Origin: Mesorhizobium sp. NFR06
Lineage (GTDB): Bacteria; Pseudomonadota; Alphaproteobacteria; Rhizobiales; Rhizobiaceae
Reading direction: 5' to 3'
Assembly (NCBI RefSeq): GCF_900115245.1
Contig: NZ_FOVT01000013.1
Coordinates: forward strand, 1-64,000
Length of the DNA: 64,000 bases
The notes beneath the pieces are model-generated. The model searched no databases and had not been told where the DNA came from. It saw only the letters and a list, made by a program, of their open reading frames with translations. Positions 3,331-60,281 of this stretch are shown here, piece after piece; position 1 is the first letter of the stretch, and each line of letters opens with the position of its first letter. Position numbers and translations under genes: made by a program.

Positions 3331-3337
3331 ATACTAG

Positions 3338-3996: not shown

Positions 3997-4039
3997 GCTG
4001 GCGCCGCTCTTCGGCACACTGGTCCTGGTGACGATCTTC

Positions 4040-4855: not shown

Positions 4856-4857
4856 CA

Positions 4858-5270: not shown

Positions 5271-5672
5271 ATGCATCACTGCTTTTACCCGTTCCTCGCT
5301 CGACATCTTGCCCGGCGGCACGGCGGGCGCGAACTCTTCATCGGCATGTCCTCCTCCAAAGATCGAGTCCCTCGGAAGAGAGGCTACGAGATGATCGACA
5401 AGTGCGCGAAGTTCGAGGAGGTGTGTGAGCGGAAGTCGGGGCGCGGCAATGATCGCAACCGAACCGGCCTGTGGGGCGGCCATCCAGTCCGGAAGATGGA
5501 AGGTCCCGCTGTGCGGCTGCCAAATAAAAAGGTGGCGGATGCCGTCATGATCATGCTCACCGACCACAGCAACGGTCTGCCCGACCAACGGATGGAATGG
5601 ATGAGTGACGACCACGTCGAAGCCTGGATTCCCTCCCAGACCTTGACCGCATCGCGCAAGGCTGGCCCGCAT
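5223..5672 (-). CDS. DUF5372-like protein associated with mobile elements
   Basis: A 149-residue frame whose core reads FDVVVTHPFHPLVGQTV, VVGEHDHDGIRHLFIW and FHLPDWMAAPQAGS. The VTHPFHPL..Q pattern followed by a short beta-rich stretch is what I know as DUF5372, small proteins of unknown role found beside rhizobial transposases and recombinases. The C-terminal residues after about position 135 run over the serine-recombinase fragment in a different frame, so the true end is probably disturbed. Whether it is expressed is unclear. Confidence 0.5.
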   Translation of the reverse strand: MRASLARCGQGLGGNPGFDVVVTHPFHPLVGQTVAVVGEHDHDGIRHLFIWQPHSGTFHLPDWMAAPQAGSVAIIAAPRLPLTHLLELRALVDHLVASLPRDSIFGGGHADEEFAPAVPPGKMSSEERVKAVMHTPQLEGLGGFDPRPP

Positions 5673-5802
5673 CCGAAATCGACGCGCTCAAGCCTTGGAC
5701 CTTCAAGCCAGACGCTATCGGCTAAGCGCTTACGTTGGACGGAAGCCGCCAAAAGGTCCCGTTATCGCGAGCGCGCCGAGGGGCTGGAGACGGGAAGAGC
5801 GC

Positions 5803-6645: not shown

Positions 6646-6870
6646 CGAATCCCTTTGCCGGCTGGTGCGCTGTGCAGTTGGGGGAATTGTACCAGCGCAC
6701 AGGGAGTGCCGCGGAAACGCAAAAGGTCGATGGGTCTCACTCGAAAGAGGTACGCACGACTAACCCGCAAAGCCCAATAACGCTGCTGTCAGATCCATGC
6801 TAGCAACTGGGGCCAGTGGTAGATTACAGAACCGCCATCGCCGGTTTGATGTCTTAGACTCAGTTATAGT

Positions 6871-8403: not shown

Positions 8404-8421
8404 AAAAGGAGGGTTGGATCC

Positions 8422-9756
8422 TTGGTGCACGATCTACGGTATAGCAACACACAGGACCCAATGCTCTGTCCGCGGCACCTCGATTCCGCCTTGCAGGTGC
8501 TCTCTGGCGGCCAGTTTGGCATGCTCCAAATGAGCCTCGCAGGCAAGGAGAACGGCCACAAAATCCTTGAGCGCTATGCGGTATTCCCCGGGCTCGATGA
8601 TCCCCGTGTGCTTATCCCACTCACCGGTGGTGCTAAGGCCCGCACTGCGGTCCTTGCGCAGTATGGGACGGGAGCGGGTTCGCGCGTGTCGCGCCTGGCC
8701 GCCCAGGTGTTGTCATTCGAAAGCCGTCTCGGTCTGCCGCTGTTGTCCTGGGGCAATCGCGTCTCCGTCGTCACAGATTCGCTTGGAGCCAAAGACACTC
8801 CGGTCCACGGCTTTCTTGCGGATGTGCTCGGAACGGGGGACTTCGTGATGAGTTTTAGGCTTGCCCCGGGCCGGCCCAATAGCAAGCCCGTCATTCAAGC
8901 GGTATCACCGCGAGGCCAGGTTTTGGCCTATGCGAAATTCGGCTGGGATGAGTTGACTCGCCGCCTGGTGCGCCATGAAGCGCAATTTCTCAGAGAACTC
9001 GCTCCGCTCTGCCGCCAGAGCGCCGTGGCCATTCCGACGGTGCTCGGCAGCGGACCCTGGCGCGGTCTTGAGGCGCTGATCGTCCAACAGCTTCCCGGCC
9101 GCGGGCGGTCCCCCATTGTGCACACGATGTTGCCGGCCGCTGCTGCCATCGCCAGCCTCGCGCCGTCACCACCCAAAGCCCTGGCTGAGACCCGCTTCTG
9201 GCAGGAGATTCGCACATTGGCCAGCCAATCAAGTCCTCTGCTGTCTGCCGGTGTCGCCGCCGCTGTCGAACACGGTTGGAAGACAGTGGAAGCGCGCTGG
9301 GGCGGGATCGTCTTCCCGCTTGGTGTAAGCCATGGTGACTGGATCCCGCCGAATATCCGGGTTCTTAAAGGTGGCCGTTTCAACGTGTGGGACTGGGAGC
9401 GTGGCAAAATCGGAGTTCCACTCGGCCTCGACATCATGCAGTTCGTGATGTTCGTTGAAATGCGCCGTTTGACCAAGCTGCCGCTGATGCCGCGCATCAT
9501 CCACGTGGGCCGCGATGCCTTGCAAAGCAAGGGCTTCAATCCGGACAATGCGCAGCCGCTCGCGGCGATCAGTCTGCTGCGCTCACTTTTGTGGTTTGTT
9601 GAATCCAGGCTTGCCGGCCGTGAAGAGAGCAACTGCAATGAATTCGCGACCGCCCTCGCGGCCTGCCTTCATTTTGGCGCGGCCGGAGGCGCCTTTGAAA
9701 CGGATCTTCAGAATAACGATCACGACGGGAAGACCGAGAGATATCAAGTATCATGA
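8422..9756 (+). CDS. Aminoglycoside-phosphotransferase-fold kinase in the polysaccharide operon
   Basis: A 444-residue protein. Its C-terminal half has the kinase signature GVSHGDWIPPNIRV (HGDxxxxN catalytic loop) followed by FNVWDWERGKIGVPLGLDI (the DWE metal-binding motif). Upstream, LAYAKFGWDEL and LVRHEAQFLREL resemble the ATP-binding lysine and helix-C glutamate regions. Such APH/choline-kinase-like proteins phosphorylate small molecules or sugars; the substrate here is unknown. The start is TTG 8422 or GTG 8425, chosen because AAGGAGGG at 8407-8413 is ideally placed. The 3' end overlaps the next gene by 4 bp (ATGA), so the two are translationally coupled. Confidence 0.75.
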   Translation: MVHDLRYSNTQDPMLCPRHLDSALQVLSGGQFGMLQMSLAGKENGHKILERYAVFPGLDDPRVLIPLTGGAKARTAVLAQYGTGAGSRVSRLAAQVLSFESRLGLPLLSWGNRVSVVTDSLGAKDTPVHGFLADVLGTGDFVMSFRLAPGRPNSKPVIQAVSPRGQVLAYAKFGWDELTRRLVRHEAQFLRELAPLCRQSAVAIPTVLGSGPWRGLEALIVQQLPGRGRSPIVHTMLPAAAAIASLAPSPPKALAETRFWQEIRTLASQSSPLLSAGVAAAVEHGWKTVEARWGGIVFPLGVSHGDWIPPNIRVLKGGRFNVWDWERGKIGVPLGLDIMQFVMFVEMRRLTKLPLMPRIIHVGRDALQSKGFNPDNAQPLAAISLLRSLLWFVESRLAGREESNCNEFATALAACLHFGAAGGAFETDLQNNDHDGKTERYQVS

Positions 9757-11906
9757 TCAATGAGAACCCGATCGCCGAAACAAGTCGCGAAGCCTCATTC
9801 AGCGATCTCTTGGCTATTTTGCGCAAGCGCACTCGGACCATCATCACCACCATGCTCGTCGTCACCATGGCATCTGCCGCGTTTGCCATCTGGCGCGGCC
9901 CCAGCTACACGGCGACGGCGCTGGTCGTCGTCGACCCAAACAAGAGCATCACCGGCGCCCCTGTTGAGACACAGAGTCCCACCACGGATCCCTCACTCAT
10001 GCAGACCCAGGTCAACACTGTGCTGGGTAATCCTCTTGCCAACCAGACGATCGATGCACTGGAACTCCTCAATGATCCAGAATTCCAGATCAGCGCACGT
10101 GGCCGGTTCCTTGCGCGGTTCTCAAGCAAAGGCCAGGAAGCGAACGCCACCGAAGAGTTGCGCGGATATGCACTTTACATATTTCAGCGGAACCTCGCCG
10201 TCACCAATCCCCCGGAATCACGCGTAATTCAAATTTCGTTCACTTCCATCGATTCCGGCAAGGCGGCAGCAATTGCAAATCGGCTGGCCAACTTCTACGT
10301 GGCCAATCTTCTCGACCGCAGAAATGCCGACGTCAGTGCTTGGCGGGCACGCGCCCTGAAGTCGCTCGATGCCCAGAAGGGCCAGGTGATAGAAGCCGAA
10401 GGCAGAGTCGCTGACCTGCGTGCGAAGGGCCAGATATTGGCAAGCAGCAATGTCACGCTTGCAAATTCCGATATGCAAGAACTAAACAAGCTGCTGATCG
10501 AGTCGAAGGCTGACGAAGCCAATCTCCGATCGAAACTATCCGCCATCGATCAGATCAGGTTGTCCGGCGGTTCTATCAACGCGATCAATGAGGTTCTCGC
10601 CTCCCAAGCCGTGTCGCAATTGCGCACGCTGGAATTGGATCTGATGCGCCAGATTGCCGAGAACTCAGCGATCTACAACGACCACAATCCGCGTACTGCA
10701 ATCCTGAACGGCCACCTTGCCGAGGTCAGGCAGCGCATTTCCCAAGAGATTGACCGCATCGTCACCGGCGTTCGCAACGAACTCGCCGCGGTCACAGCGC
10801 GGTCGGCAGCGTTCGAAGAGCAGTTAAAGGGAGCCGCAGACCAAAACGGACGCGCCGAGCTCTACTCCGTGCAATTGCAGGTAGCTGAGCGCGACGCCGT
10901 AGCAAGGCGCTCAGTCTATGAGGATCTGCTGCGTTCCGAACAACAAGCCGATGCTATGCTCGGTTCTGCGGATGCGGGCGCTTGGGTCATGTCGCCGGCC
11001 GAGATTCCTATCAAGCCATCGAGCCTTAGTGTCTTCATCATCGCCGCTGCTGCTGCGGTGCTTTCGACTCTGCTCGGGGCCGCGATCGCACTTGCGCGCG
11101 AATCCTTGGACAAGCGGCTCGTCGGTTCACGCGAGGTCGAGGAAGCGTTAGGGGTGCCCTGCCTGGCTCTGCTGCCCAAGCCTGATCGCGTCGCCGGTCA
11201 GATCCGCCACCGCTCGGCCCTCGGCCGGAAGGCGAACTCCCTCTATGCCCACGCGGTTGGCGCTCTGGAGGCGCGACTGGCCGTTGCCTCACCGCGGGCC
11301 AGGACCATTGTGATCACCTCACCCGTGCCGAGCCGCGAAAAGGCGCAGCTCGCTGTCGATCTCGCAGTCTATTCCGCCCAGGCCGGCAAGCGCACGGTAC
11401 TGGTGAATTTCGACAAGTACCAACCGGTACTGATGCGAGATTTCGGCCTGCAAGTGCCGGCCGAAGCAACCAAGCTGTTGAGCTCAAATCTGAGTTCCGA
11501 CACCTCGATCGACGTGGCGCTGACCCTCGATCAGGCAACGGGACTCGACATCTTGTCCCTCGACGGCGAGCCCCAAAGTGACGCCCATGTTTCTGCCCCC
11601 CACAACAACATCGTGACGCTGATCAAGATGCTAGCCAAGCGCTACAAGTATATCATCGTCAATGCGCCGCCGCTGCTGGGGGTAAGCGACTGTCACGCCC
11701 TCGCAAGCCAGGGCGATTGCGTCCTCATCGCCCTGGAATGGGGCAGGACCGAGCGCTCCGACGCCGAGGCTGGTGCCGGAGTATTGCGGCGGCTCACCAC
11801 CCGTTTCGTCTTTGCCGTCATGACCGGCGTCGAAATCCGGGGCCAACAAGTCCAGTCGTCAGGCCTAATCACACAAAAGCGTTTCCGGAGACTCTATGAG
11901 GGATGA
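9753..11906 (+). CDS. Wzc/ExoP-like polysaccharide co-polymerase with degenerate kinase domain
   Basis: A 717-residue inner-membrane protein. Residues about 15-60 hold the Wzz domain start (FSDLLAILRKRTRTIITTML, first membrane helix) and YTATALVVVDPNKS. A long periplasmic coiled coil follows (LDAQKGQVIEAEGRVADLR), then a second membrane helix at about 430-455 (SLSVFIIAAAAAVLSTLLGAA). The cytoplasmic region from about 500 has the fold of a BY-kinase, but the Walker A loop reads SPVPSREKAQLA instead of GxxxxGK[ST], and the Walker A' strand reads VLVNFDKYQP instead of the usual hhIDxDxR.P. No tyrosine cluster is present at the C-terminus. It should control chain length and link to the ExoF-like exporter but probably lacks autokinase activity. 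Confidence 0.9.
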   Translation: MINENPIAETSREASFSDLLAILRKRTRTIITTMLVVTMASAAFAIWRGPSYTATALVVVDPNKSITGAPVETQSPTTDPSLMQTQVNTVLGNPLANQTIDALELLNDPEFQISARGRFLARFSSKGQEANATEELRGYALYIFQRNLAVTNPPESRVIQISFTSIDSGKAAAIANRLANFYVANLLDRRNADVSAWRARALKSLDAQKGQVIEAEGRVADLRAKGQILASSNVTLANSDMQELNKLLIESKADEANLRSKLSAIDQIRLSGGSINAINEVLASQAVSQLRTLELDLMRQIAENSAIYNDHNPRTAILNGHLAEVRQRISQEIDRIVTGVRNELAAVTARSAAFEEQLKGAADQNGRAELYSVQLQVAERDAVARRSVYEDLLRSEQQADAMLGSADAGAWVMSPAEIPIKPSSLSVFIIAAAAAVLSTLLGAAIALARESLDKRLVGSREVEEALGVPCLALLPKPDRVAGQIRHRSALGRKANSLYAHAVGALEARLAVASPRARTIVITSPVPSREKAQLAVDLAVYSAQAGKRTVLVNFDKYQPVLMRDFGLQVPAEATKLLSSNLSSDTSIDVALTLDQATGLDILSLDGEPQSDAHVSAPHNNIVTLIKMLAKRYKYIIVNAPPLLGVSDCHALASQGDCVLIALEWGRTERSDAEAGAGVLRRLTTRFVFAVMTGVEIRGQQVQSSGLITQKRFRRLYEG

Positions 11907-13500
11907 AGACCAAGGTGCCGCGCCGTCCAACCGGCGGCGCTTCCTCCTTGCAGGTCTTGCTGGAGCAGGCGCTGCGCTGCCGGCGGGGGTGAGTGCCAAT
12001 GCGTCCGACGCAGGCGCGGAATTCAGTCTTGCGGCACCGGGAAGTGTTAAGCGCCGCATTGAAGATAAACTGCGGGAACTGCCGTCGCTTGACGATTTCG
12101 GTGCGCGCGGCGATGGCGTCACCGACGACTCTGAGGCTCTGCAGACAGCACTTGACTGGGCAGGGCAAAGGCCCGGCACGCGGCTGCGTGTACCGCCTCG
12201 CGTGTTCGGCCTCGCCCGCCCAATCGCCGTTCCGCAGTCGATCGAGCTTGCTGGCGAAGTGCCGGGGGACGGCAATTCTCCGCTGAGCGGTTTTCGGGCC
12301 CTGAAGGGATTTGAGACGCCATATGTCCTACACTATTCAAGCGTTGAAGGTGTGGCTCCACTGCCGCTTGCCGCATTGCTGGTCAGCCGTGAATGGGTGG
12401 AGGGGAAAGATTTTGCAAGACGCCTTCACATGCGCGACTTGTACTTCGACGTCGATGCCATAACAGCGCACGGCGGTGTTCCAGTCCACGGGCTTATGCT
12501 TGCCAATCAACAGCTCGACATTCATAACATTTGGGTCCGGAGCGCCACCGGCTTTGGCCTGTGGATTAATACCCAGCGCCCCGACGGTACCTTTATGGCT
12601 GCGCTCGTCGACAACCTACTCCGTCGCGTATGGGTCAAGGGCGCGGGGGTAGGCGGAGCCAGTTTCACAGGACCACATGGCGAGATGAATTTCGGCGGCA
12701 TCCTGGTTGGCGCTTTGCCGGGAGCCCGAGACCCCAGAGGCGCAGCTGAGCCGCCATTGGCGACTGACGGCATCTTGGACTATTGCACCGTCGCCGTCGG
12801 CCCCGAAGCACTTCTGGGTTGCCGTGGTAACGGCATTCACATCACCCGATCCGCAGGATGGCGCGCCACCGGTTGCCACCTAAACGGCGCGGGGCGTAAT
12901 GGCATGGTCTTCGAGCATGCCTTCCAGACGGAAATTTCCGGTTGCTACATTGATGGTTGGGGCGTCGGCGCGGGAGCGCGCGAAGGGGTTCTCTCAGCCA
13001 TATCATGCAACTCCGTCGTCGCGCTCGGCGACGGCGCCGATGGCTCGCTCATTATTTCATCCAATCGTATCGCCTGCCGCTCTGTAGCGGCCACTGCCGG
13101 AAATGATTATGTGGCAATCAGCCTCCGGGCCGGATCGATGCCCACAGCGCGCGCCGTCGTCATCGGCAACACGATTGTCAGGCGAGGCGCTGCCACCCAT
13201 GCCTTTTCCACATTCGATTTCGGAAAGGCGGGGGGCGGCGAATTTGAAGCGCTAGTCATTGGAAACTCCGCCCCGGGAACCGTTACTCCCTTCTTGCGGC
13301 CTTGGGACGAAATGGCGGTCCGGCCTCGCTTCACCGGCAACAGTTTTCAGTTTGCAAGCGCTCCACCGTCACTGGGGTGGCACCCTGCGGGCCTCCGCAT
13401 CGACAACGATGCACCTACTCCAGGTGCCGCGGCGGCGTGGTTCTGTGTAATGCGCGGAAGCCCAGGCAACTGGCGGAGTTGCGGAAGGATCGACTCCTGA
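11896..13500 (+). CDS. Tat-exported pectate-lyase-like beta-helix protein
   Basis: A 534-residue protein with a twin-arginine leader: NRRRFLLAGLAGAGAALPAG, cleaved near VSANA. The next segment, LPSLDDFGARGDGVTDDSEAL, is the standard opening of the Pectate_lyase_3 / GH28-like right-handed beta-helix. Later repeats (GNGIHITRS, GWRATGCHLNGAGRNGM, TEISGCYIDGWGVGA) continue the solenoid. It probably binds or cleaves the polysaccharide made by this locus in the periplasm or outside the cell; catalytic residues cannot be assigned by eye. The gene overlaps the upstream co-polymerase by 11 bp and precedes the polymerase gene by 2 bp. Confidence 0.8.
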   Translation: MRDEDQGAAPSNRRRFLLAGLAGAGAALPAGVSANASDAGAEFSLAAPGSVKRRIEDKLRELPSLDDFGARGDGVTDDSEALQTALDWAGQRPGTRLRVPPRVFGLARPIAVPQSIELAGEVPGDGNSPLSGFRALKGFETPYVLHYSSVEGVAPLPLAALLVSREWVEGKDFARRLHMRDLYFDVDAITAHGGVPVHGLMLANQQLDIHNIWVRSATGFGLWINTQRPDGTFMAALVDNLLRRVWVKGAGVGGASFTGPHGEMNFGGILVGALPGARDPRGAAEPPLATDGILDYCTVAVGPEALLGCRGNGIHITRSAGWRATGCHLNGAGRNGMVFEHAFQTEISGCYIDGWGVGAGAREGVLSAISCNSVVALGDGADGSLIISSNRIACRSVAATAGNDYVAISLRAGSMPTARAVVIGNTIVRRGAATHAFSTFDFGKAGGGEFEALVIGNSAPGTVTPFLRPWDEMAVRPRFTGNSFQFASAPPSLGWHPAGLRIDNDAPTPGAAAAWFCVMRGSPGNWRSCGRIDS

Positions 13501-13502
13501 AC

Positions 13503-14888
13503 ATGTCCATGAATGCTGCCTCATCGCGCCTTGTTGCCGCCAGCCGCAGGCGGGAGAAGGGCTATGTTCACCTTACCGAAGCAGCTTTTTCGATTTTTCT
13601 GCTCGGGCTACCCATTTGGTGGGCCTTGGGCATCGGCTTCGTGATGCCGATGTTACTCGCCCTCATCTTGTTGATCATGCGCCCTTCGGCAAACCTGCAT
13701 TTCACTTTGGGGGACTGTCTGCTCGCCTTCGTCATCGTTGCGCTCACCGGATCCGCATTCGTCAATGGCCTCATCATCGCGCAGGAATCGCTGAGATTCG
13801 CCGCGGCCATCTACAATGCGGCAATCTGGGCGAGCGCCCTCATCATCGTCCAGCAGTTTCGCGCGCTCCTCCAAGATGCCGGCGATGGGCGCCGCCGCAT
13901 TCTTCATCTTGCCTTCTGGAGCTTTGTAGTTCTCATCCCCCTGACCTGGGGCGCCTTCGTGTTCGCCTATGCAGTCAGGCGATTCGACTTGCAATTCCCA
14001 AGTCTCTTTGGCGCCATCGCCGGTGACAGGATTCCAGATTCGGCTGCTCTCATCCGCCAGTCCACAACAATCACCCTCACTATTGCCGACTGGGGCTTGC
14101 ACGGAACTCCGATGCCACGCATCGGCATCTATGGCCCCTATCCAAACGCCACTGCCATCATCATCGCCATCCTCGGTGTCCTAGCGCTTCTGCACCTGCA
14201 TAACCGTGGAGGCCGGCGAGCCCTGCTCGCGCCATTGCTTGAGGGCCTCATCACGGCAACACTCGCCATTTCGTTAAGCCGTTCAGTTCTTGCTGGCTGG
14301 TTGGCGGGGCTCGCGGTGGCGGGAATAGCTTTCGGTTCGCCATCTCGACGCTTGGCAAGCATTGCCGCGGTTGCCGCGGCCCTTCTCCTGCCGCTACTCG
14401 CGGACTTATCGTCGCTCACGACTTACCGGGAATACAGCACCGACAGCCGCACCGACAACTACGTCCGAGCCGTCGTCGAAACGCTCGACAACGACCCCGT
14501 CTTCGGCCTCGGCATAAAGCCGCGCGAAGAAATCAGCCATATTGCGTTGGGTTCACACTCGACTTTCATCTCCGCTTTTACAAAGGGAGGCGTTCTCGGT
14601 CTGTCGCTGGTGGCGGCCTACCTGCTGGTTCTTCCGGCCATACGCTGGCTCGGTCTCGCGGCGGCCGCCAAGAGGCTGCCAGTCGTTGCCAGAACGCAGC
14701 TCCGGCTGTTGTTGACGCTTCAGATCACTTTGTGGGCGTGGCTCGTGTTCGAGGATATTGACGCACCCGCGATCGCCTCCATACTGATTTTCCTCTTCAT
14801 CGCCTACAGCGAGTTTCTCGCAGCCAGCTTGCAATCCGCCCGCAGGGTGGCGCTGCAGTCCCCGATTCGGCAGAGTCTCCGGTCATGA
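13503..14888 (+). CDS. Wzy/O-antigen-ligase-like polysaccharide polymerase
   Basis: A polytopic membrane protein of about 461 residues, starting MSMNAASSRLVAASRRR. I count about ten hydrophobic segments, for example AFSIFLLGLPIWWALGIGF, MLLALILLIM and LLAFVIVALTGSAFVNGLI. The large periplasmic loop contains RIGIYGPYPNA and SLSRSVLAGWLAGLAV, and the C-terminal part has VFGLGIKPREEISHIALGSHSTFISA, the H-xS..GSHSTF pattern of the Wzy_C/O-antigen ligase family. It should link repeat units at the periplasmic face. An in-frame extension upstream to 13302 overlaps the beta-helix gene and is not credible. The stop overlaps the next start by 4 bp. Confidence 0.88.
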   Translation: MSMNAASSRLVAASRRREKGYVHLTEAAFSIFLLGLPIWWALGIGFVMPMLLALILLIMRPSANLHFTLGDCLLAFVIVALTGSAFVNGLIIAQESLRFAAAIYNAAIWASALIIVQQFRALLQDAGDGRRRILHLAFWSFVVLIPLTWGAFVFAYAVRRFDLQFPSLFGAIAGDRIPDSAALIRQSTTITLTIADWGLHGTPMPRIGIYGPYPNATAIIIAILGVLALLHLHNRGGRRALLAPLLEGLITATLAISLSRSVLAGWLAGLAVAGIAFGSPSRRLASIAAVAAALLLPLLADLSSLTTYREYSTDSRTDNYVRAVVETLDNDPVFGLGIKPREEISHIALGSHSTFISAFTKGGVLGLSLVAAYLLVLPAIRWLGLAAAAKRLPVVARTQLRLLLTLQITLWAWLVFEDIDAPAIASILIFLFIAYSEFLAASLQSARRVALQSPIRQSLRS

Positions 14889-16174
14889 CCTTCCTCCCGT
14901 CGGCGCGGCTGGAGACCGCCAATGCCGGCGCCGCTTTGCGCCGCAAGTTGAGTGGGCGCATCCTGCGGGTACTCTTCGTGCGCAGCGCCGGCGTTGCTGC
15001 CCTGTTCGCGCTCGAAATCGTTTTGGCCCGGTCACTTGGCGCAGCGAATTACGGCGCGTTCAATGTCGCCTTGGCGATCGCCACAGTCGCAGCGCGGCTT
15101 GCTCCGATGGGCTGGCTCAACGCTTCGACGCGGCTGCTGAGCGCTTACACTAACGCGCAACAGTTCGGTCTCATCAAGGGGGTGCTGCTGCAGGCTTATG
15201 CGACGACTATCGCCGGGCTCGCCGTATCCCTCGGCGCGCTGGGCTTCGCACGCTTCATGTGGCCAGGTATCGCGGGCAACATAGTTCCGGCCTATATGGC
15301 ATTTCTTGCCACAGCACTGACACTGCTTGAACTGCATCGTTACCTGTTGCGCGGCTTCCACGCGGGCGACCTCGGTGAGGCTTTGCCTACCCTGATGCTG
15401 CCAATGAGCGTCATTGGCTTGGTGTTGGCACTGGGGCTCCACGATCCAGGCCGTGCGGTGGTCTATTACGGCGCCAGCTGCGTTCCGCTCCTTGCGATTT
15501 CAGCAGTTGCAGTCGCGAATTTTACGCCGCCCGCCACCTGGAAGACAGCAGCCGAATGGCGTGTGGGCGAATGGGCTTTTGCAGCCGCCGCCATGCTGGT
15601 CGGCAGTCTTAGTGACGAGGTCGTATCACGCACCGCCGTGCTGATCTTGGGCTTTACCGGCGACAACCATGGTGCGGGACTTTATCAAGCCGCGTCGCGG
15701 CTCGCGCTGATGAACGTCTTCATGCTGCGGATCATTACGCCGGTTGCGGCGCCGTGGATAAGCGTGATGTTCAACGATGGCCGCCTCGAGGAACTGAGGG
15801 CGTCATATTTGCGCCTTTGTCTATTGTCGCTCGCTGGTGCACTGCCGCTTGCCGTTGCGTTCTGGGCGGCGCCAAGTCTTGTGCTCGGCTGGTTCGGCAA
15901 CGAGTTTATTGGAGCGGCCGCTATCCTCCGTCTCCTTGGCCTCGGCTATCTGATCTCTGCCGCCGTAGGCCCTTGCGCCACGGCACTGATGATGGTTGAC
16001 AAGGAGCGGACCTACAGCAAGCTGGCACTGGGCTTCGTGGCATTCAATTTCGTAGCAACCTTCATCCTTTCGGCACTTTACGGTGCCGATGGCGCCGCCG
16101 TTGCGACCGCAGCTACCCTAATCGCTGCCAACATCACCTATTTCATATGTTTCTGGCGAACGATCAAACCTTGA
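14885..16174 (+). CDS. Wzx-like polysaccharide flippase
   Basis: A 429-residue polytopic protein of the MOP/PST flippase group. The opening RRKLSGRILRVLFVRSAGVAALFALEIVLARSLGAANYGAFNVALA is the usual start, with the GA..YG.F motif after the first helix. Around twelve membrane segments follow, and RTAVLILGFTGDNHGAGLYQAASRLA is the typical seventh-helix region. The gene starts inside the stop codon of the polymerase gene (ATGA overlap) and is the last of the forward polysaccharide genes. It should move lipid-linked repeat units to the periplasm for the Wzy-like protein. Confidence 0.9.
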   Translation: MTFLPSARLETANAGAALRRKLSGRILRVLFVRSAGVAALFALEIVLARSLGAANYGAFNVALAIATVAARLAPMGWLNASTRLLSAYTNAQQFGLIKGVLLQAYATTIAGLAVSLGALGFARFMWPGIAGNIVPAYMAFLATALTLLELHRYLLRGFHAGDLGEALPTLMLPMSVIGLVLALGLHDPGRAVVYYGASCVPLLAISAVAVANFTPPATWKTAAEWRVGEWAFAAAAMLVGSLSDEVVSRTAVLILGFTGDNHGAGLYQAASRLALMNVFMLRIITPVAAPWISVMFNDGRLEELRASYLRLCLLSLAGALPLAVAFWAAPSLVLGWFGNEFIGAAAILRLLGLGYLISAAVGPCATALMMVDKERTYSKLALGFVAFNFVATFILSALYGADGAAVATAATLIAANITYFICFWRTIKP

Positions 16175-16176
16175 GC

Positions 16177-16607
16177 ACTTGGTAGCCGTCCCATAAGCGC
16201 CGTCCTCAATTGATCGTGAAGGGAAACACCAGCAAGCCGGAGTTGGTGGAGCCGCGCATTGCAATCGCTTTTGACGATCAGCCGGTGTACGCCAGAGGCA
16301 GCGCCGACTCCCGCAGGAACTCATGCTGGGGCCAAAGCTTCCCGCAGCCCCTACAATCGTGACGCCAGCAATCCCGTTGTGGAAATCAGCATCGCGCAGG
16401 ACGATCGAATGGGTCACGGTCGCCGGCTTCTCCCACCACCGGCGAATAGAGCGTCGTAACAAGGGAGCCGGCACTGGCTGGCGCAGGCTCGCTTCGCAAT
16501 GGCGGGTGACGTCATCCTGCGGTTTTCCAGTATTGATGTAAGTCTGGAATTGAGAGAGGAAATCATGCGGTTGCCATCCGGCTCGTTCACATAAGCGCGG
16601 TAGCGGA
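16177..16607. other. Intergenic stretch without a convincing gene
   Basis: No credible gene is seen between the flippase stop and the repeat at 16608. Reverse-strand fragments such as AMRGSTNSGLLVFPF hint at a decayed carbohydrate-related gene, but frames are broken every few dozen codons and I cannot name a family. Confidence 0.4.
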
Positions 16608-16676
16608 TTTCCGTCCGGAATTGCGTCAAAACAAATACTTAGAGCGGTTCGGCGATTCTATCAAACGCTGAACCGC
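16608..16676. repeat. Rhizobial intergenic palindromic repeat, copy 1
   Basis: Contains TTCCGTCCGGAATTGCGTCAAAACAAA followed by the palindrome AGAGCGGTTCGGCG...CGCTGAACCGCC. A clearly related copy lies at 53671-53775. It overlaps the 3' end of the small hypothetical gene at 16639-17007. Confidence 0.7.
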
Positions 16677-17007
16677 CATAGAGAGGCCGGAATTCCCGAA
16701 CCAGCTCACGGCACCCGCCAGCGCAGCCAAGCCTGGCGGGTGCCGTTGGGCAGGTCATGCCCGCGAGCCTCGTATCTTCAACGCGAGTTATTTCGCTGCT
16801 AGGTGTCTTTTTCACCAACACTGCGGCGGCAAGATTGCCCGGATTGTTGTGCAAGACTAAGCGCACTGCTTCGTGCTTATTGTTCTCAGCTGATGCCCAA
16901 AATGCGGCTATTTCCGAGCGGGCGAGCGCGTCGCACGTGTTCGGCGGATTGTCCACTGGCGATAACACAATGTGCGTGCGGTCGAACGGAACTGCTTCGG
17001 TCGTCAT
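16639..17007 (-). CDS. Small hypothetical protein downstream of the ExoY-like gene
   Basis: A 122-residue frame starting MTTEAVPFDRTHIVLSPVDN, with a compact central part (SEIAAFWASAENNKHEAVRLVLHNNPGNLAAAVLV). It lies 67 bp downstream of the sugar transferase gene in the same direction, so the two may be cotranscribed. The last 40 residues look less protein-like, and the final codons run into the rhizobial palindromic repeat, suggesting the natural stop was lost or that the end is degraded. I do not recognise the family. Confidence 0.45.
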   Translation of the reverse strand: MTTEAVPFDRTHIVLSPVDNPPNTCDALARSEIAAFWASAENNKHEAVRLVLHNNPGNLAAAVLVKKTPSSEITRVEDTRLAGMTCPTAPARLGCAGGCRELVREFRPLYGGSAFDRIAEPL

Positions 17008-17074
17008 GGTCAGACTCCAAACAACTTCCGAATCACTCAAGTATGCACGATTGGGGGAGGGGCCGCAGACCGGC

Positions 17075-17725
17075 TCAGTAGGCGGAATCTGATTCGAACA
17101 CCTCACGGAGGGTCTGAAGGAAGATCAGGCAATCGACTGGCAAACTGGCGTTCTCGATATACTCCAAATCAATGTCCACACGCCGCCGCATGTCCTGTAT
17201 TCGCGGGGTGCCCCCGCGCGCGCCGCTGATTTGCGCAAGCCCAGTCAGGCCTGGGCGAACTTCAAATCTCCGCACATAATGTGGGATGCGCGCCATGTAG
17301 AATCGGTCATGCTCAACGGCATGTGGCCGCGGGCCGATGAGTGACATCTCACCACGCACCACGTTGAAGAGCTGTGGAAGCTCATCGAGGCTCGTCGCCC
17401 GGAGGAACCGGCCCAAAGGGGTGACTCGTGAATCCCCTCGGATCGCTTGCTCGACCGTTCCCGCCCGCGTCTCCGCCCAATACATCGTACGGAACTTGAG
17501 GAGCATGAATGGCTTCATGCCTATTCCGCTCCGCCGTTGCCGGAAAAGGATTGGTCCAGGAGATGTTGTTGAAATACCGACGGTTATGAGCCCTATCACC
17601 GGGATCAGGGCAACCAACAAGAGTACAGCTACCAACGTATCCAGCGAGCGTCTGAACCGGCTGTTAAGATAACTGCGGGATAGATCGATAATAACCCGAT
17701 CAGTAGATTGCTCTAACACACCCAT
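17075..17725 (-). CDS. ExoY-like undecaprenyl-phosphate sugar-1-phosphate transferase
   Basis: A 216-residue initiating glycosyltransferase of the bacterial sugar transferase family (PF02397), which transfers galactose- or glucose-1-phosphate to undecaprenyl phosphate and so starts each repeat unit. Visible hallmarks: one membrane segment (LDTLVAVLLLVALIPVIGLITVG), SPGPILFRQRRSGIG, FMLLKFRTMY, RVTPLGRFLRATSLDELPQLFNVVRGEMSLIGPRP and VRPGLTGLAQISGARG. The short, single-helix form is the ExoY type rather than the longer WbaP type. I prefer the ATG at 17725, preceded by GGGG seven bases away; an ATG at 17746 is also in frame. Confidence 0.93.
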   Translation of the reverse strand: MGVLEQSTDRVIIDLSRSYLNSRFRRSLDTLVAVLLLVALIPVIGLITVGISTTSPGPILFRQRRSGIGMKPFMLLKFRTMYWAETRAGTVEQAIRGDSRVTPLGRFLRATSLDELPQLFNVVRGEMSLIGPRPHAVEHDRFYMARIPHYVRRFEVRPGLTGLAQISGARGGTPRIQDMRRRVDIDLEYIENASLPVDCLIFLQTLREVFESDSAY

Positions 17726-17984
17726 GTCGACCCCTACAAACGACATGGCTCATTGCAATAAGAACAACATTCCAGACTAAACACACCGTCTGGTGGTTAT
17801 CACTGCGCCGTTGGCATCCTTTTTACTCAGCGTCGCCGAGATAACTAGCGCATCTCATACACCACCGTGCGTCCAGATTGCAAATGCGCCTCCGGAAAGA
17901 TTTACTGCAAATAATTTTACAAAATTTGGATTAAAGAGTCTAGCGAAATTAACTCGCGCAACGCGACTGACGTTAGCCTGCCGA

Positions 17985-26866: not shown

Positions 26867-27625
26867 TTAAAGGCAGCGTGCATCCACCAAAGGAGGTATG
26901 GCAATTGGACTGGGGTTTCCGACCGAGACGATGCGGCCGCCGCGGCGCACCTTGAGATAAGTCGCATCGATCCAAAGATATGGCCAGTCACCTTCGATCG
27001 GCCGTTCGAGGAAGGCCTTCACCTTGCCGTCGATTTCCTCGCACAGCCGCAACACCTGGCTCTTGGAGATGCCGCTCATGCCCATCGCCTTGACCAGGTC
27101 GTCGACCGAGCGGGTCGAGATACCTTGGACGTAGGCCTCCTGGATGACGGCCGTCAGCGCCTTCTCAGCCATGCGGCGCGGCTCCAGGAAGCTGGGGAAG
27201 TAGGAGCCCTTCCTGAGCTTGGGGATGCGCAGCTCGACCGTTCCGGCTCGCGTCTCCCAGTCCCTGTCGCGGTGACCATTGCGCTGGGCGGTCCGCAGCG
27301 CGCTCTTTTCGCCATAGCCGGCGCCCGCCGCGGCACCCACCTCCAACTCCATCAGCCGCTCGGCGGCAAAGCCGATCATCTCGCGCAGGAGATCGGCATC
27401 GGGAGTCTTCTCCACGAGCGCGCGCAGGTTCATCATGTCGTCGGTCATCGGTGCTTCCTTCGAATCAGGTTGGTGTCAGCAACCCGACCCTAACGGAAGA
27501 ACATCGATGACCACCGCTGCGCCCCTCGCTCGCTACGGCGCGCGCTCACGAGCGGCTTCGCCACCGCCGAGCTACACCACCTCGCGGGACACGACCAAGA
27601 ATCCTGGCTTATTGTGAACACCAAA
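26867..27625 (-). mobile_element. IS256-family element, 5' half with truncated transposase
   Basis: The transposase starts at 27448 ([15 protein letters not shown]) and shows family blocks: [101 protein letters not shown], and [18 protein letters not shown] with the first catalytic Asp. It ends after about 185 residues where the joined sequence starts, so two thirds of the DDE domain is missing. The likely element end lies at about 27615-27625 (GTGTTCACAATAAGCC on the reverse strand). It sits directly upstream of the truncated adhesin. Confidence 0.85.
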
Positions 27626-51453: not shown

Positions 51454-52341
51454 ATGCTCAATCCAATCTCCATCATGGCCGACCGGCTCGGCGATTATCT
51501 GTCGGAACTCTATCTCCAGTATTTCTCGCATCGCAATCCGGAATATGCCAGCTACATGGGCGGGGCGGCCCGCCTTGTCCTGGAGCGCATCGGCAGTTCG
51601 AACGCGCTCTATCACAACATCGAGCATACACTGATGGTTACGCTCGCTGGCCAGCAGATCATCCGCGGTCGGCTGCTTTCGGAATCCCTGACCCCCGATG
51701 ACTGGCTGCATTATACCTGCGCGCTGCTTGTCCACGACATCGGCATGGTGCACGGCGTATGTCAGGGCGACACCGAGGACAGCTTCGTCATCAACGAGGC
51801 CGGTGACCGCTATACGCCTCCGCGCGGCGCCTCCGACGCGGTTCTTGCGCCCTATCATATCGAGCGCGCCAAGATCTATGCGCGCCAACGTTTTGCTTCC
51901 TCGAAGTTCATCGACGAGGAGCGCATTGTCGAGGCGATCGAGATGACGCGCTTTCCGGTGCCGAACGATCCGGCCTACCGGGTGACCAACACCGAGCCGG
52001 CGCTGGTCAGGGCCGCGGACCTGATCGGCCAGCTCGCCGATCCCTTCTATCACCGCAAGCTGCCGGCGCTGTTTGCCGAGTTCTCCGAGATCGGGATGGT
52101 GGAAAAGCTCGGCTGCAAGACCGCCGCCGATCTCGGCGCCATCTTCACCGATTTCTTCACGCTGCAGGTCGAGCCCTATATCGGCGACGCGATCCGCTAT
52201 CTGGATCTGACGACCGAAGGCAAGCAGTGGATCGCCAACCTCCACAGCAACCTCTTCCAGTCCGGGCATCGCCCGGCCAGGATCGGGCCGTTCCCCGGCG
52301 TGTTGCAGCCGACCTCGGTGAGCCTCTCGGAGGTAACGTAA
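51454..52341 (+). CDS. HD-domain metal-dependent phosphohydrolase-like protein
   Basis: A 295-residue protein. The HD-type metal site reads NALYHNIEHTLMVTLAGQQII (H....H) then YTCALLVHDIGMVHGVC (HD), and a conserved Asp is likely at VRAADLIGQLADP. The order H, HD, D is the usual one in PDE-like HD domains. The C-terminal end is polar. The start at ATG 51454 is chosen over the upstream in-frame codons, which look non-coding. Its neighbour downstream is the cyclic-nucleotide-gated channel MloK1, so a nucleotide phosphodiesterase role is attractive but unproven. Confidence 0.8.
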   Translation: MLNPISIMADRLGDYLSELYLQYFSHRNPEYASYMGGAARLVLERIGSSNALYHNIEHTLMVTLAGQQIIRGRLLSESLTPDDWLHYTCALLVHDIGMVHGVCQGDTEDSFVINEAGDRYTPPRGASDAVLAPYHIERAKIYARQRFASSKFIDEERIVEAIEMTRFPVPNDPAYRVTNTEPALVRAADLIGQLADPFYHRKLPALFAEFSEIGMVEKLGCKTAADLGAIFTDFFTLQVEPYIGDAIRYLDLTTEGKQWIANLHSNLFQSGHRPARIGPFPGVLQPTSVSLSEVT

Positions 52342-52604
52342 GAGCCCGGGATTGTTTGCTTTTTCCGCCGGTGCCAAGCCCGCAGAGCTTGCCTGCGGCA
52401 GCTGTCGACCAAGATGAACGCCGGGGGCGATCTTCCTTGCCCCGATCGCAGGGAGGTGCTCCTGTCTGTTCACTTCCGGTCACGATGCTTTCCCGGACGC
52501 CTGAGCTGACCGCTGGCGATATACATCGCAGCGACAGTAAGCACCTTTACGCTTGCCTTGAAGGCATCCTATTTTGCAGGGTAGTAGTCGCTCGTGGGCA
52601 TAGA

Positions 52605-53672
52605 ATGTCGGTACTGCCTTTCCTAAGAATTTACGTGCCGCTCAACGCGCTGCTGGCCGCGCCTGGGCTTTTGGCGGTGGCTGCGCTCACCACGCCGGAC
52701 ATGTCCGGACGAACCAGATTGGCCCTGGCTGCCGTGCTCGCGGTCATTTGGGGCGCCTATCTCCTGCAACTGGCCCAGACGCTGCTCAAGCGGCGGGCGG
52801 AAGACGTTCGGGACAGGCCGCCAGCAATCATCATTGATGTGCTCGCGGTTTTGGTTCCACTCGCCGCATATCTGCTCGTCGGCGCGCCGGACTGGAGCCT
52901 CTACTGTGCTGTCTGGCTGCTGAAACCGCTGCGCGACTCTACTTTCTTCCCGCTGCTTGGCAGGATCCTCGCCAACGAAGCACGCAACCTGATCGGCGTC
53001 ACCACGGTCTTCGGCGTCGTTCTATTCGGTGTCGCGCTCGTGGCCTATGTCATCGAGCGCGGCGTTCAACCGGAAAAGTTCGGCAGCATCCCGCTTGCAA
53101 TGTGGTGGGCGGTGGTCACGCTGTCCACCACCGGCTATGGCGACGCCATTCCGCAAAGCTTCGCCGGCCGCGTCCTTGCCGGGGCGGTCATGATGAGTGG
53201 CATCGGCATCTTCGGGCTCTGGGCCGGCATTCTTGCCACCGGCTTTTACCAAGAAGTCCGTCGCGAGGATTTCGTCCGCAATTGGCAATTGATCGCCGGC
53301 GTGCCGTTGTTTCAGAAGCTCGGCCCGGCCGCGCTGGTCGAGATCGTGCGCGCGTTAAGACCTCGCACCGTGCCGGCGGGCGCCGTGATCTGCCGCAAGG
53401 GCGAGACCGGCGATCGGATGTTCTTCGTCGTGGAGGGACGCGTCAGCGTCGCGACGCCGAACCCGGTGGAGCTTGGCCCTGGCGCCTTTTTCGGCGAGAT
53501 GGCGCTGGTCAGCGGCGAACCGCGCTCGGCGACCGTCAGCGCCACAACGGTGGTCTCGCTTCTGTCGCTGCATTCAGCGGATTTCCAGATGCTGTGCAGC
53601 AGCAGCCCGGAGATCGCTGAAATCATCCGCAAGACCGCGCTCGAGCGGCGCGGCGCGCCACCGATGGCTTGA
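52605..53672 (+). CDS. MloK1-type cyclic-nucleotide-gated potassium channel
   Basis: A 355-residue protein nearly identical in sequence and length to MloK1 of Mesorhizobium loti as I know it. It has six membrane segments, a pore loop with the K-selective filter TTGYGD (residues 175-180) and a short linker (YQEVRREDFVRNWQLIAG). The C-terminal cyclic-nucleotide-binding domain has the phosphate-binding cassette FGEMALVSGEPRSATV with Arg307, and Arg348 in the last helix, both cAMP contacts in MloK1. The unusual short C-linker of this family is kept. It gates K+ flow in response to cAMP; its physiological role in Mesorhizobium is unresolved. A rhizobial palindromic repeat overlaps its stop codon. 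Confidence 0.96.
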   Translation: MSVLPFLRIYVPLNALLAAPGLLAVAALTTPDMSGRTRLALAAVLAVIWGAYLLQLAQTLLKRRAEDVRDRPPAIIIDVLAVLVPLAAYLLVGAPDWSLYCAVWLLKPLRDSTFFPLLGRILANEARNLIGVTTVFGVVLFGVALVAYVIERGVQPEKFGSIPLAMWWAVVTLSTTGYGDAIPQSFAGRVLAGAVMMSGIGIFGLWAGILATGFYQEVRREDFVRNWQLIAGVPLFQKLGPAALVEIVRALRPRTVPAGAVICRKGETGDRMFFVVEGRVSVATPNPVELGPGAFFGEMALVSGEPRSATVSATTVVSLLSLHSADFQMLCSSSPEIAEIIRKTALERRGAPPMA

Positions 53673-56189: not shown

Positions 56190-56552
56190 CGTGCTGTAAC
56201 CTTCCGGTAAAATCGGCAAGCGACGACATCTATGTCCGCCGTTGCTCCTACCTTGAAGAAGTCGATGTTGTGGTACAAGACTTCGTCCTTCCGAGCTAGA
56301 CCGTTGCGCCGGGTACTTGGCAGTGTTTATCTTGTCGCTGGGGCAGGGCATTCCGATACTGCGAGGCATGAGCGCTTGCCATTCGGCCTGGCTTGAAGCC
56401 TTTTGCCCGGCTCCAGTTCGCCCCGATCTTGACAGGGCAGAGCCGCCATCCGATGCCGTCATCCGTTTTTGACATTCGCCGTCTCTTGCCGAAGAAAACC
56501 AAAGCCTGCTACCGCAGGCGGTGTGGTTCCGTTTGCCGGGATCCGCCGGTAG

Positions 56553-56678
56553 ACCGACCGGCTGCTGGATTTGGTCGTGGTGGACGATGGGTCGACGGAC
56601 GGATCGACGTCGATTGTGACGGCCTACGCCGAGAAAGTTCAACGCATTTTGTTCTACCCTCGAACCAGGCGCGGATAA
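56553..56678 (+). pseudogene. GT2 glycosyltransferase N-terminal scrap
   Basis: The forward frame reads TDRLLDLVVVDDGSTDGSTSIVTAYAEKVQRILFY, then a stop. VVDDGSTDGS is the nucleotide-sugar-binding motif of GT2 enzymes. Nothing before or after it is preserved. It sits 7 bp before the large fusion gene, whose own first domain is also GT2. Confidence 0.7.
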
Positions 56679-56684
56679 GACGGC

Positions 56685-59648
56685 GTGGCGCATAATCCCT
56701 TGGTTTCAATCGTGGTTCCTGCGCACAATGCGGAAGTAACGCTGGCGCGCGCACTCGATTGCCTTCTCGACCAGGAAATCGCGGATTGGGAAGCGATCAT
56801 CGTCGACGACGCCTCGACGGACGGCACCCCCGCGATCATCGCCGGCTATGTGCAGCGCGATGCCCGCTTTCGGACGTTGAGGTCTTGCGCGTATAGCCTC
56901 GCCGGCGCGCGCAACAGCGGGATTTCGACGGCGCGCGGCCACTGGCTCATGTTTCTGGATGCGGACGATTGGGTGGATGCCAGCTTCCTTGCGAAAATGC
57001 TGGCCGCGCTGAAAACCGCTCCCGATGCAGTGGCCGCCTATTGCGGTTCTCGGCGCGTGATGCCCGATGGCGAACTCACCCCGTCGAGCATCCAGACGGA
57101 GGTGGCGATCCAGCCCTTCGAAACATTCGCGCGCCAGTGCGCCATTCGCACGCACGCGCTGCTGGTCGACCGCGAGACAATTGTCGAACTGGGCGGTTTC
57201 GACGTGTCGCTGCGCACCTGCGAGGACTGGGATCTGTGGCAGCGCCTCGCACGTCTAGGCAAAAATTGGGTGATGGTCGACGAGCCGCTCGCCTTCTATC
57301 GGGCCAACCCCAACGCGCGCTCCCGCAATTCGACACAGATGCTGCTGGATGCGGAAATCGTCATCGCCCGCGGCTTTTCTCGCGACCCCAGGGTCAAACA
57401 CCCGGCAGCGGCTCACGCCAATGGAGCGAGCGAGGCTAACGGCCGCACCGCTCGCGAAGCACTCGCATGGTTCGCCTTGTGGAACGCCGCGTCCGATTGC
57501 GGTCGCGGCTCGCGCTCGATCGACGGACTGTCGCTGCGCGCGCTGCCGCCGGCACGCAAGTGGGCGCGTGAGATCGCCAAGGTAGCCCTCGATGGCGTCA
57601 TGGTGGGAAGCCAATCGGCGCCGGCGCAATTGGCTGCCAGGTGGGACAGGTTCGGCGGCTCCCTCACCGAGTTGATCACCGACCTGGGTGAGGTCTGGAA
57701 CAATCCCGTCGCGGGTCGCCGTGTCCAGTATCACATTGAGCAAATGCTTCTCGACTACGACGATCTTGCCGCGCCGCGCAAGCTGGCGCGAACGCTTGGA
57801 ATTCGTGTCGACGCTCGAAATCCGACCTCGATCGAGCTTCCGGAAGGAATCGATCAAATCTATGCCTATCTGATGATGGATGGCCAGATCGAGGCTCGCG
57901 TGCAGTTCGGCGCGCTCGGGAAAGTGACAAGGCGTCACTGGCTTGAATTGACCCTGAATTTCGTGCCCGCTGAGCGGCTTATGCGCAGCCTCTCCCGCTA
58001 TGAGCGCGTGGTCTTGCGAAAGGGTGCCGCGCAGCTTGCGGGACGATCGCCTGTTGCTGCCGGGGCCTCGTTGACCATGGCGGAACGCCGGCCTGATCGG
58101 GACAGCCATTTCGGCAAACTCGCGCGATTGGCCGCGCAAGCGCGGCGGTTGGTTCGCTCGAGCGCCGAAGCTGCGGAGCCTCTGGCCGCGCCGCGCCGTG
58201 CAGCAGCCGCGGATGGGCGCGACAATGATCGCACGTCGTTCTGGAATCGCCATTTCGCGACCGCGGATCCCTGGAACTACGGTTCGCCCTATGAACAGGA
58301 AAAGTATGGGCGGCAGCTCGAAATTCTGCCTGCCGGCCGCATCGGACGGGCACTCGAGTTGGCCTGCGCGGAGGGTCACTTCACGCGGCAGCTGGCGCCG
58401 CGTGTGGGTCACTTGACCGCAACCGACATCTCCGACGTAGCCATTGGGCGGGCGCGCGCGCGATGCAGCGATCAGCCGAATGTTGAGTTCGGCGTACTGG
58501 ATTTCTCTGCGGACACGCTGCCGGGCGAAATGGACCTGATCGTCTGTTCGGAAGCGCTCTACTACCTGGACGATGTCGCCGAGTTGCGGCGCGTCGTCAG
58601 AAAACTCGTTGAGGCGTTGGCGCCTGGCGGCAGTTTCATCAGCGCGCACGCATTCGTGCTAGGCGACAATGTTGAAAGGACCGGCTTCGACTGGAACACA
58701 TTCGGTGCGCAAGTGATCTCGCAGACGCTGGCCGCGACCGAAGGCCTCGTCCTGGAGCAGTCGATCCAGACCGAGCTCTATCGCATAGACCGCTTCCGTC
58801 GCCTGTCACCGGGCGAGGTGGCCACGGGGCCGACGATTGATCATGTCCCGATCCGCGCGCCCATCGAAATCGGGGTCGCGCGAAAGATCGTCTGGGGCGG
58901 GGCGCGGGCCTTGCGCCGCGACGTCGCACGCAGCGAGCGGCGGCGGCGTATCCCTGTCCTCATGTATCACGGCGTCTCCGATGACGGTCCGGCCGCGCTC
59001 ACGCGTTTTCGGCTTGCGCCCGCCGCGTTCGACAGCCAGATGGCATGGCTCCGCGCCAATGGCTTTCACGCCATTACATCCGAGCAGCTGGAATGGTTTA
59101 TCGCCAACCGTCAGCCTTTCGCCGGCCGCCCGGTGCTCATCACCTTCGATGACGGCTTCCAGAACTTTGCCGACCATGCCTGGCCGACCTTGCGCACGAA
59201 CGACCTGACCGCGGAAGTGTTCCTGGTGACGGACCTGGTGGGTGAAAGCGCACGGTGGGACGCCGTCAGCGGTCCGCCGGCGCCGCTTATGGACGCCGCG
59301 ACGGTGCGGCGCCTCTCCGCCGAGGGCGCGTTCTTCGGAAGCCATCTGGCGACGCATCGCGCGATCGATGGTCTGTCGAGCTCTGACCTGGCCGCCGAGC
59401 TGCTGCGCTCGCGTATGTTCATCGAACGCTGGACCGGTCGGCCAACCACAGCGTTCGCGGCGCCTTTCTCCGCCACCGACCGACGGCTTGGCAGGCTGGC
59501 CAGGGAGTGCGGCTATCGAATTGGCTTCGGCGAACGACACGGGCCAGCTGACCTCGATTGCGATCCCATCGACCTTCCGCGCATCGAGATTCGCGGGGAT
59601 CGCTCGCTCGATGCCTTTGTCGCCAGTGTCGAGGCAGTGCTCGACTGA
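56685..59648 (+). CDS. GT2 glycosyltransferase - NodS-like methyltransferase - polysaccharide deacetylase fusion
   Basis: A 987-residue protein with three catalytic regions. Residues 1-240: GT2 fold, LVSIVVPAHNAEVTLARAL, IIVDDASTDGTP (40-50) and FLDADDW (DxD at 92-94). Residues about 515-720: SAM methyltransferase of NodS type, SFWNRHFATADPWNYGSPYEQEKYGR, RALELACAEGHFTRQLAP, LIVCSEALYYLDDVAELRRVV. Residues about 750-987: NodB-type deacetylase, IPVLMYHGVSDD, VLITFDDGFQNFADHAWPTL (TFDD metal Asp) and FFGSHLATHRAI (HxxxH). A linker at about 250-510 is helical. It should build and modify an N-acetylated sugar chain; the end product is unknown. The start is GTG 56685. The DUF5939 remnant follows. 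Confidence 0.85.
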   Translation: MAHNPLVSIVVPAHNAEVTLARALDCLLDQEIADWEAIIVDDASTDGTPAIIAGYVQRDARFRTLRSCAYSLAGARNSGISTARGHWLMFLDADDWVDASFLAKMLAALKTAPDAVAAYCGSRRVMPDGELTPSSIQTEVAIQPFETFARQCAIRTHALLVDRETIVELGGFDVSLRTCEDWDLWQRLARLGKNWVMVDEPLAFYRANPNARSRNSTQMLLDAEIVIARGFSRDPRVKHPAAAHANGASEANGRTAREALAWFALWNAASDCGRGSRSIDGLSLRALPPARKWAREIAKVALDGVMVGSQSAPAQLAARWDRFGGSLTELITDLGEVWNNPVAGRRVQYHIEQMLLDYDDLAAPRKLARTLGIRVDARNPTSIELPEGIDQIYAYLMMDGQIEARVQFGALGKVTRRHWLELTLNFVPAERLMRSLSRYERVVLRKGAAQLAGRSPVAAGASLTMAERRPDRDSHFGKLARLAAQARRLVRSSAEAAEPLAAPRRAAAADGRDNDRTSFWNRHFATADPWNYGSPYEQEKYGRQLEILPAGRIGRALELACAEGHFTRQLAPRVGHLTATDISDVAIGRARARCSDQPNVEFGVLDFSADTLPGEMDLIVCSEALYYLDDVAELRRVVRKLVEALAPGGSFISAHAFVLGDNVERTGFDWNTFGAQVISQTLAATEGLVLEQSIQTELYRIDRFRRLSPGEVATGPTIDHVPIRAPIEIGVARKIVWGGARALRRDVARSERRRRIPVLMYHGVSDDGPAALTRFRLAPAAFDSQMAWLRANGFHAITSEQLEWFIANRQPFAGRPVLITFDDGFQNFADHAWPTLRTNDLTAEVFLVTDLVGESARWDAVSGPPAPLMDAATVRRLSAEGAFFGSHLATHRAIDGLSSSDLAAELLRSRMFIERWTGRPTTAFAAPFSATDRRLGRLARECGYRIGFGERHGPADLDCDPIDLPRIEIRGDRSLDAFVASVEAVLD

Positions 59649-59717
59649 ACGGTGAACTCGTCAGTGTCTTCCCGCTCACAGGGCGCAAGGCGCATTCGAC
59701 GAGACGCTCGGCCGTCG

Positions 59718-60187
59718 ATGACCGACCCCATGCCATTCGCATCGGGCAGGATTGTTGGTAGGTTGCCGCAAGGCAAATTGGGATCCGCCGTGATGGTGGT
59801 CGACGATCGTCTTCTCGAACGCAAGATGACCGAGATCGAGCAAGCGCGAGCCTGGAGCCCGCGCGTCATCTCAAAATTCGAAACGCTTATCAGGAGCAGC
59901 GACGACGAGGCGCTCTATCGCGTCAATCCGCTGGCCTTCGCCCGCGACCGCGCAATCGCCGAGCCTGAAGCAATCGACCTCTTCCTTCACGCCGCCCGCT
60001 GCGGCCTGTTCGACATGAGCTGGGACGTGCTCTGTCCCCAATCCGGGATGGTGCTTCGACAGTTTCGGCGCCCTGCGCACGCTCAAGACGCATTACGTCT
60101 GCGGCCTGTGCGACGTATCGGGCGATACCGACCTCGACGACTTCATCGAGGAGGCGATGCAACCGTCTATCGCATCATGGGGGGATA
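59718..60187 (+). pseudogene. DUF5939 domain protein, broken and truncated
   Basis: Recognisable: MVVDDRLLERKMTEIEQARAWSPRVISKFETLIRSSDDEALYRVNPLAFARD, EPEAIDLFLHAARCGLFDMSWDVLCPQSGMVL, then one frame over FGALRTLKTHYVCGLCDVSGDTDLDDFIEEAM. This is DUF5939, usually an N-terminal part of adenylate/guanylate cyclases (with a CxxC-like CPQSG...CGLC arrangement for metal). The frame breaks after SGMVL and the sequence ends at about 60140. The cyclase domain that normally follows is not here; an intact-looking cyclase lies on the other strand at 60980. Confidence 0.78.
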
Positions 60188-60281
60188 GGCGCGATTGCGT
60201 GCCACAAACTGTTAGCCGTTGCCTCGGCCCTGCCGGCCAAAAAACTAGCTGCTTCGCCGCAGCATACGCCTGCAACGGTCC

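Follow-up and report, generated by a model that had tools for sequence, protein, structure and literature searches.

NCBI PGAP annotation already has a name, "trifunctional glycosyltransferase/class I SAM-dependent methyltransferase/polysaccharide deacetylase", for proteins of about 1000 aa that carry these three domains in this order, such as those of Gloeothece PCC 7822, Sulfitobacter indolifex and R. leguminosarum pSK03. In our literature searches we found no publication on the fusion, on the PGAP name or on the operon to which such genes belong. In the established chemistry of NodB followed by NodS, a free amine must be present before it can be methylated, and a CE4 deacetylase partner can supply one. 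The window analysed here, a stretch of 64,000 nt from Mesorhizobium sp. NFR06, encodes a protein with the PGAP arrangement: GT2, class I methyltransferase and polysaccharide deacetylase, in this order and in one chain. However, whereas the PGAP-named proteins adjoin glycosyltransferases (GTs) and ABC transporters, the gene in the window is a solitary one, accompanied by fossils of its partners. The operon context, the partner fossils and an asymmetric loss of domains are the new elements of this study.

The frame is open over all 987 codons (Table 1). The original prediction that a single polypeptide holds three intact sets of enzyme motifs was borne out by Pfam, by the motifs themselves and by full-length relatives. 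Pfam matched Glycos_transf_2 at residues 8-134 (E 3e-30), NodS (PF05401) at 518-653 (E 7e-22; 78.7 bits, gathering score 24) and Polysacc_deac_1 at 813-946 (E 7e-19). The motifs DADD (at 92), CEDWD (179), ELACAEG (558), TFDDG (820) and SHLATH (886) were located, and the catalytic residues of all three enzyme domains are intact. Because full-length relatives of 39-90% identity share the domain order, the fusion reflects neither chance nor an assembly error. An AlphaFold2 model of the entire protein had a mean pLDDT of 81; structure matches were made per domain. A hydropathy scan of the protein detected no membrane segment (highest 19-residue value, 1.39). The protein is thus probably soluble and cytoplasmic, a cytosolic location being expected because the methyltransferase needs SAM.

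Table 1. Features of the trifunctional locus (window coordinates)
Feature	Position	Strand	Remarks
Upstream GT2 gene of the operon (fossil)	56541..56647	+	DNA match to L090 5905-6011, 74% over 107 nt
MftF-like glycosyltransferase gene of the operon (fossil of its 3' end)	56650..56678	+	Stop codon lies 6 nt ahead of the trifunctional start, the spacing of the intact operon
Trifunctional GT2 / NodS-type methyltransferase / CE4 deacetylase gene	56685..59648	+	987 aa, GTG start
GT2 catalytic domain, residues 1-235	56685..57389	+	DXD (D92/D94) and presumed base D181, all present
Middle domain, residues 236-505	57390..58199	+	Helices, then three strands; retained in GT2-less relatives
NodS-type SAM methyltransferase domain, residues 511-720	58215..58844	+	Pfam, fold, tree
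CE4 polysaccharide N-deacetylase domain, residues 750-987	58932..59645	+	D822, D823, H887, H891 present
Downstream GT2 gene of the operon (fossil of its start)	59649..59712	+	80% over 77 nt to L107

Of the three enzyme domains, the methyltransferase (MT) bears out the NodS-group relationship that had been proposed for it. Its nearest solved structure is NodS, the nodulation N-methyltransferase (PDB 3OFK; Z 24.1, 30% identity), with phosphoethanolamine N-methyltransferase also among the matches, and the NodS model NF041650 was the only strong NCBIfam match (103.8 bits, against 31 for the next). Nevertheless, this score lies below the equivalog cut-off of 300 bits, where true Mesorhizobium NodS proteins score 329-349; window-type MTs form a separate clade beside NodS, well removed from it in the tree; and NodS is free-standing, whereas the window MT is part of a fusion. 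The domain is therefore nearest to NodS in sequence and fold, yet it is not NodS itself. As the original prediction had supposed, the deacetylase has an intact active site: the Asp-Asp pair of TFDDG and the HxxxH motif that characterize the CE4 superfamily are both present, and the four residues are invariant in 72 sequences. The best fold match was PplD (Z 26.3), and PplD, PgaB and IcaB (Z 21-26) share with the domain the TFDDG motif and a His-x-x-x-His type metal site. The scores with the PgaB and IcaB models, 69.6 and 42.3 bits, fall short of the respective cut-offs of 322 and 248, but these families do match, whereas the NodB model (TIGR04243, cut-off 240 bits) gave no match to this domain even at E 1, and the window locus was absent from the NodB matches of our survey. 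We conclude that the CE4 domain is PplD/PgaB/IcaB-like and not NodB. PplD, PgaB and IcaB are exported or cell-surface enzymes acting outside the cytoplasm; the window CE4 domain, in contrast, is joined to cytosolic-type enzymes in a protein where no membrane segment was found.

The GT2 domain has the GT-A fold of non-processive enzymes such as K4 chondroitin polymerase (Z 26.9), WrtF, heparosan synthase 2 and TuaG (Z 25-27 for the group). TuaG was its top NCBIfam match, although the domain lies under every equivalog cut-off shown. Unlike NodC, it has neither a membrane segment nor the QxxRW motif, and the NodC model (TIGR04242) ranked outside the top 25 families. The middle domain, modelled separately (pLDDT 83.6), had no significant match among solved structures (best values: E 0.64 with Foldseek, Z 5.7 with VIA), a result that does not imply a novel fold. 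Hence the proposed Nod analogy survives in the kinship of the MT to NodS and fails at the equivalog level for NodS, NodB and NodC alike. A NodB-then-NodS-like mode of working is our best mechanistic guess, by analogy; that these are Nod proteins is unsupported. Neither NodB nor NodS exceeds its cut-off in the window genome, and in the Mesorhizobium survey the presence of the trifunctional gene does not track nodB.

Relatives of the gene were found in 88 of 146 Mesorhizobium species, with the frame open in nearly all. Full-length relatives also occur in Bradyrhizobium, Sphingobium, Sulfitobacter and Cyanobacteriota, but outside Mesorhizobium the gene is scattered: a phylum-wide draw gave 4 of 212 genera (a count that includes the window genus), and the phylum to which L102, a Synechococcus bin, belongs gave 2 of 244 genomes. 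One genome of the latter phylum has two adjacent open frames (981 and 1173 aa; G515:C24:50320-57803) that match P0001, one of them only across the GT2-middle part. The operon, seen in Bradyrhizobium, Sphingobium and a few Mesorhizobium, runs in the order GT2, MftF-like GT, trifunctional gene, GT2, HepA/MsbA-like ABC exporter; Rhizobium and Sinorhizobium have a similar set, and the first GT2 was seen only in Mesorhizobium. Often found nearby are genes for a UDP-sugar epimerase and for a second NAD-dependent sugar epimerase/dehydratase; Sphingobium has an acyltransferase-3-like gene in the vicinity, and a Rhodovastum bin an UppS-like gene. Thus, a co-located exporter is found in relatives, and acyltransferases in some of them. 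The operon ABC protein has the HepA-type heterocyst polysaccharide exporter as its top NCBIfam match (314 bits), but stays under the cut-off of 725, and no such gene lies beside the window gene. Because the operon ABC protein is HepA-like, the Anabaena HEP island was considered as a link, but the description of the island in PMC4390870 lists glycosyltransferases and mentions neither a methyltransferase nor a deacetylase, so that it provides none.

The window gene is the only survivor of this operon, flanked by fossils of three partner genes at the original junctions. The upstream "GT2 scrap" of the original prediction proved real, being matched by the intact GT2 gene of a related operon (L090), and the suspicion that the locus was once larger is substantiated by the three fossils. 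Positions 56650-56700 align at the DNA level with the end of the MftF-like gene and the trifunctional start of L090 (94% over 51 nt), and the L107 match (59640-59712) covers the last trifunctional codons and the beginning of the downstream GT2 gene. The two upstream fossils would have been joined by a deletion of about 1.95 kb. Many other solitary loci contain debris of the same operon genes with different breakpoints, and in a tree of the MT and CE4 part the solitary genes group together in a single supported clade (100/93) that excludes the operon-bearing Mesorhizobium. A close MftF-like partner (82-100% identity) is present in only 6 of 146 Mesorhizobium species, and none was found in the window genome. 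A GT2-GT2-ABC cluster of that genome (G000:C6) is not put forward as a partner, given that its ABC protein is only 34% like that of the operon and that the MftF-like gene is missing. Today the window gene has an MscS-type channel gene on one side and a broken cyclase gene on the other. The latter (59652-60188, +) is an N-terminal adenylate-cyclase-like remnant that loses its frame after about 120 residues; an intact counterpart of 481 aa lies at L086 10329-11774.

All three enzyme domains of the solitary clade are under purifying selection, with dN/dS values of 0.21-0.26 across GT2, MT and CE4 (about 0.22 for MT and 0.26 for CE4; NG86, pairwise, the pairs not being independent). Domain loss, however, is unequal. 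Among sites invariant in 12 diverged operon forms, 17 of 43 are altered in solitary proteins in GT2, as compared to 10 of 60 in MT and 3 of 56 in CE4 (GT2 versus CE4, p 3e-5 with sites as units). A GT2 catalytic acid is lost in 13 of 55 solitary proteins and in none of the operon forms, and the domain is deleted in 5 further loci; in-frame deletions occurred in no fewer than three lineages, the junctions differing between them, and catalytic losses and domain deletions together amount to about 12 changes on the tree. By a count from the survey listing, GT2 is missing in about 13 of the 88 Mesorhizobium genomes; copies in G802 and G710 only appear to lack it, owing to N-filled assembly gaps or contig ends. 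In contrast, the catalytic residues examined in MT and CE4 do not vary across 72 sequences, and a single genome (G738, 1 of 88) has a frameshift near the CE4 end. In the reading favored below, GT2 catalysis would have become dispensable in the solitary clade, although it is still intact in the window strain. Lineages that lost a catalytic acid did not show raised GT2 dN/dS (0.216 versus 0.261 in intact pairs); therefore, the fold stays constrained and may still be needed. The losses could also be recent.

On these sequence grounds we favor, with a probability of about 0.5, a cytosolic modifier that deacetylates and then methylates an amino sugar on a lipid-linked glycan and that was formerly part of an assembly line. 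In the ancestral operon, GT2 would add an N-acetyl-hexosamine to a lipid-linked oligosaccharide, CE4 would then take off the N-acetyl group, and the NodS-type MT would N-methylate the freed amine; neighbouring GTs would extend the glycan, and the HepA/MsbA-like exporter would flip it out. In the window strain and most Mesorhizobium, where the operon has decayed and the trifunctional gene alone persists under purifying selection, the conserved task would be to deacetylate and methylate an amino sugar that other genes produce. The fused "assembly line" originally proposed is a better description of the ancestral operon than of today's solitary gene, among whose relatives GT2 catalysis is frequently lost. 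One could envision, more tentatively, that Mesorhizobium has repurposed an assembly-line protein as a solitary deacetylase/N-methyltransferase, its GT2 turning into a pseudo-enzyme, to decorate the amino sugar of a glycan specified by other loci; we regard this as somewhat less probable than not.

The sequences themselves show the domains with their catalytic residues, the operon context, the fossils, the selection and the unequal loss; the cytosolic location, methylation of nitrogen rather than oxygen, the order of steps and the lipid-linked substrate are the deduced parts of this scheme. Weighing against it, NodS-type folds include O-methyltransferases too, the CE4 domain's nearest structural relatives work outside the cytoplasm, GT2 dN/dS is not raised in the damaged lineages, and CE4 is frameshifted in one genome. 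The MT might instead cap a glycan hydroxyl independently of the deacetylase, in which case the two enzymes would act on separate positions within a single glycan. Chain-terminating O-methyltransferases of glycans, either fused or encoded in operons, are known; general models of class I methyltransferases match the PF05401 region as well; and the MT clade stands well apart from NodS. Against this, no solved fold is nearer than that of NodS, no other NCBIfam model matches strongly (NodS, 104 bits), and MT and CE4 are retained jointly even where GT2 is deleted, as fits coupled steps; we consider O-methylation unlikely, but the most serious competitor. A target other than an exported lipid-linked glycan, namely a small molecule or a protein-linked sugar, is suggested by the company that solitary genes keep (MscS channel, cyclases, redoxin, with no adjoining glycan genes). 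All non-Mesorhizobium contexts examined nevertheless include GTs, and nearly all an ABC exporter, which makes such a target improbable.

It could also be argued that the solitary gene is a slowly decaying, functionless relic, every partner gene being gone, GT2 sites or the domain repeatedly lost, and CE4 frameshifted once. The open frame in nearly all 88 species, the low MT and CE4 dN/dS and the invariant catalytic residues speak against this view, which we hold to be very unlikely. Least probable of all is a Nod-factor-like line producing a de-N-acetylated, N-methylated chitooligosaccharide signal. The reaction types are those of NodC, NodB and NodS and the MT is of NodS type, but GT2 is not NodC-like, CE4 is not NodB-like, the acyltransferase NodA is absent at the locus, and the gene occurs in Sphingobium, Sulfitobacter, cyanobacteria and Mesorhizobium without nodB. 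If the modifier reading is correct, a NodB-NodS type reaction pair has been fused outside nodulation, and deacetylation followed by methylation could be a general means of tagging amino sugars at the surface. That GT2 catalysis was lost several times while MT and CE4 stayed shows which activities to assay first, and the locus offers a clear case of one glycan-operon gene outliving all others across a genus.

Some minor observations concern related loci and the surroundings. One genome that retains the operon form has a second, CE4-only copy (L036; G021:C1:3247733-3248437) with 67% identity and one internal TGA. Strain-variable Mesorhizobium glycan clusters adjoining minCDE (L126 8531-13668, L127 9376-18667) distantly resemble the trifunctional operon and comprise an acyltransferase-like gene, GT2s, a HepA-like ABC gene and epimerases. 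In the window, an MlotiK1-like ion channel with a cyclic-nucleotide-binding domain (PF07885, PF00027) is encoded at 52227-53672 (+), with several class III cyclase genes near. Judged by eye, a short IS256-type transposase-like fragment lies at 26867-27448 (-), and positions 1465-17746 hold, from their translations only, an apparent exopolysaccharide cluster, with a Wza-like export protein, a chain-length kinase-like protein, a Wzx-like flippase and a WbaP-like sugar transferase among its products.
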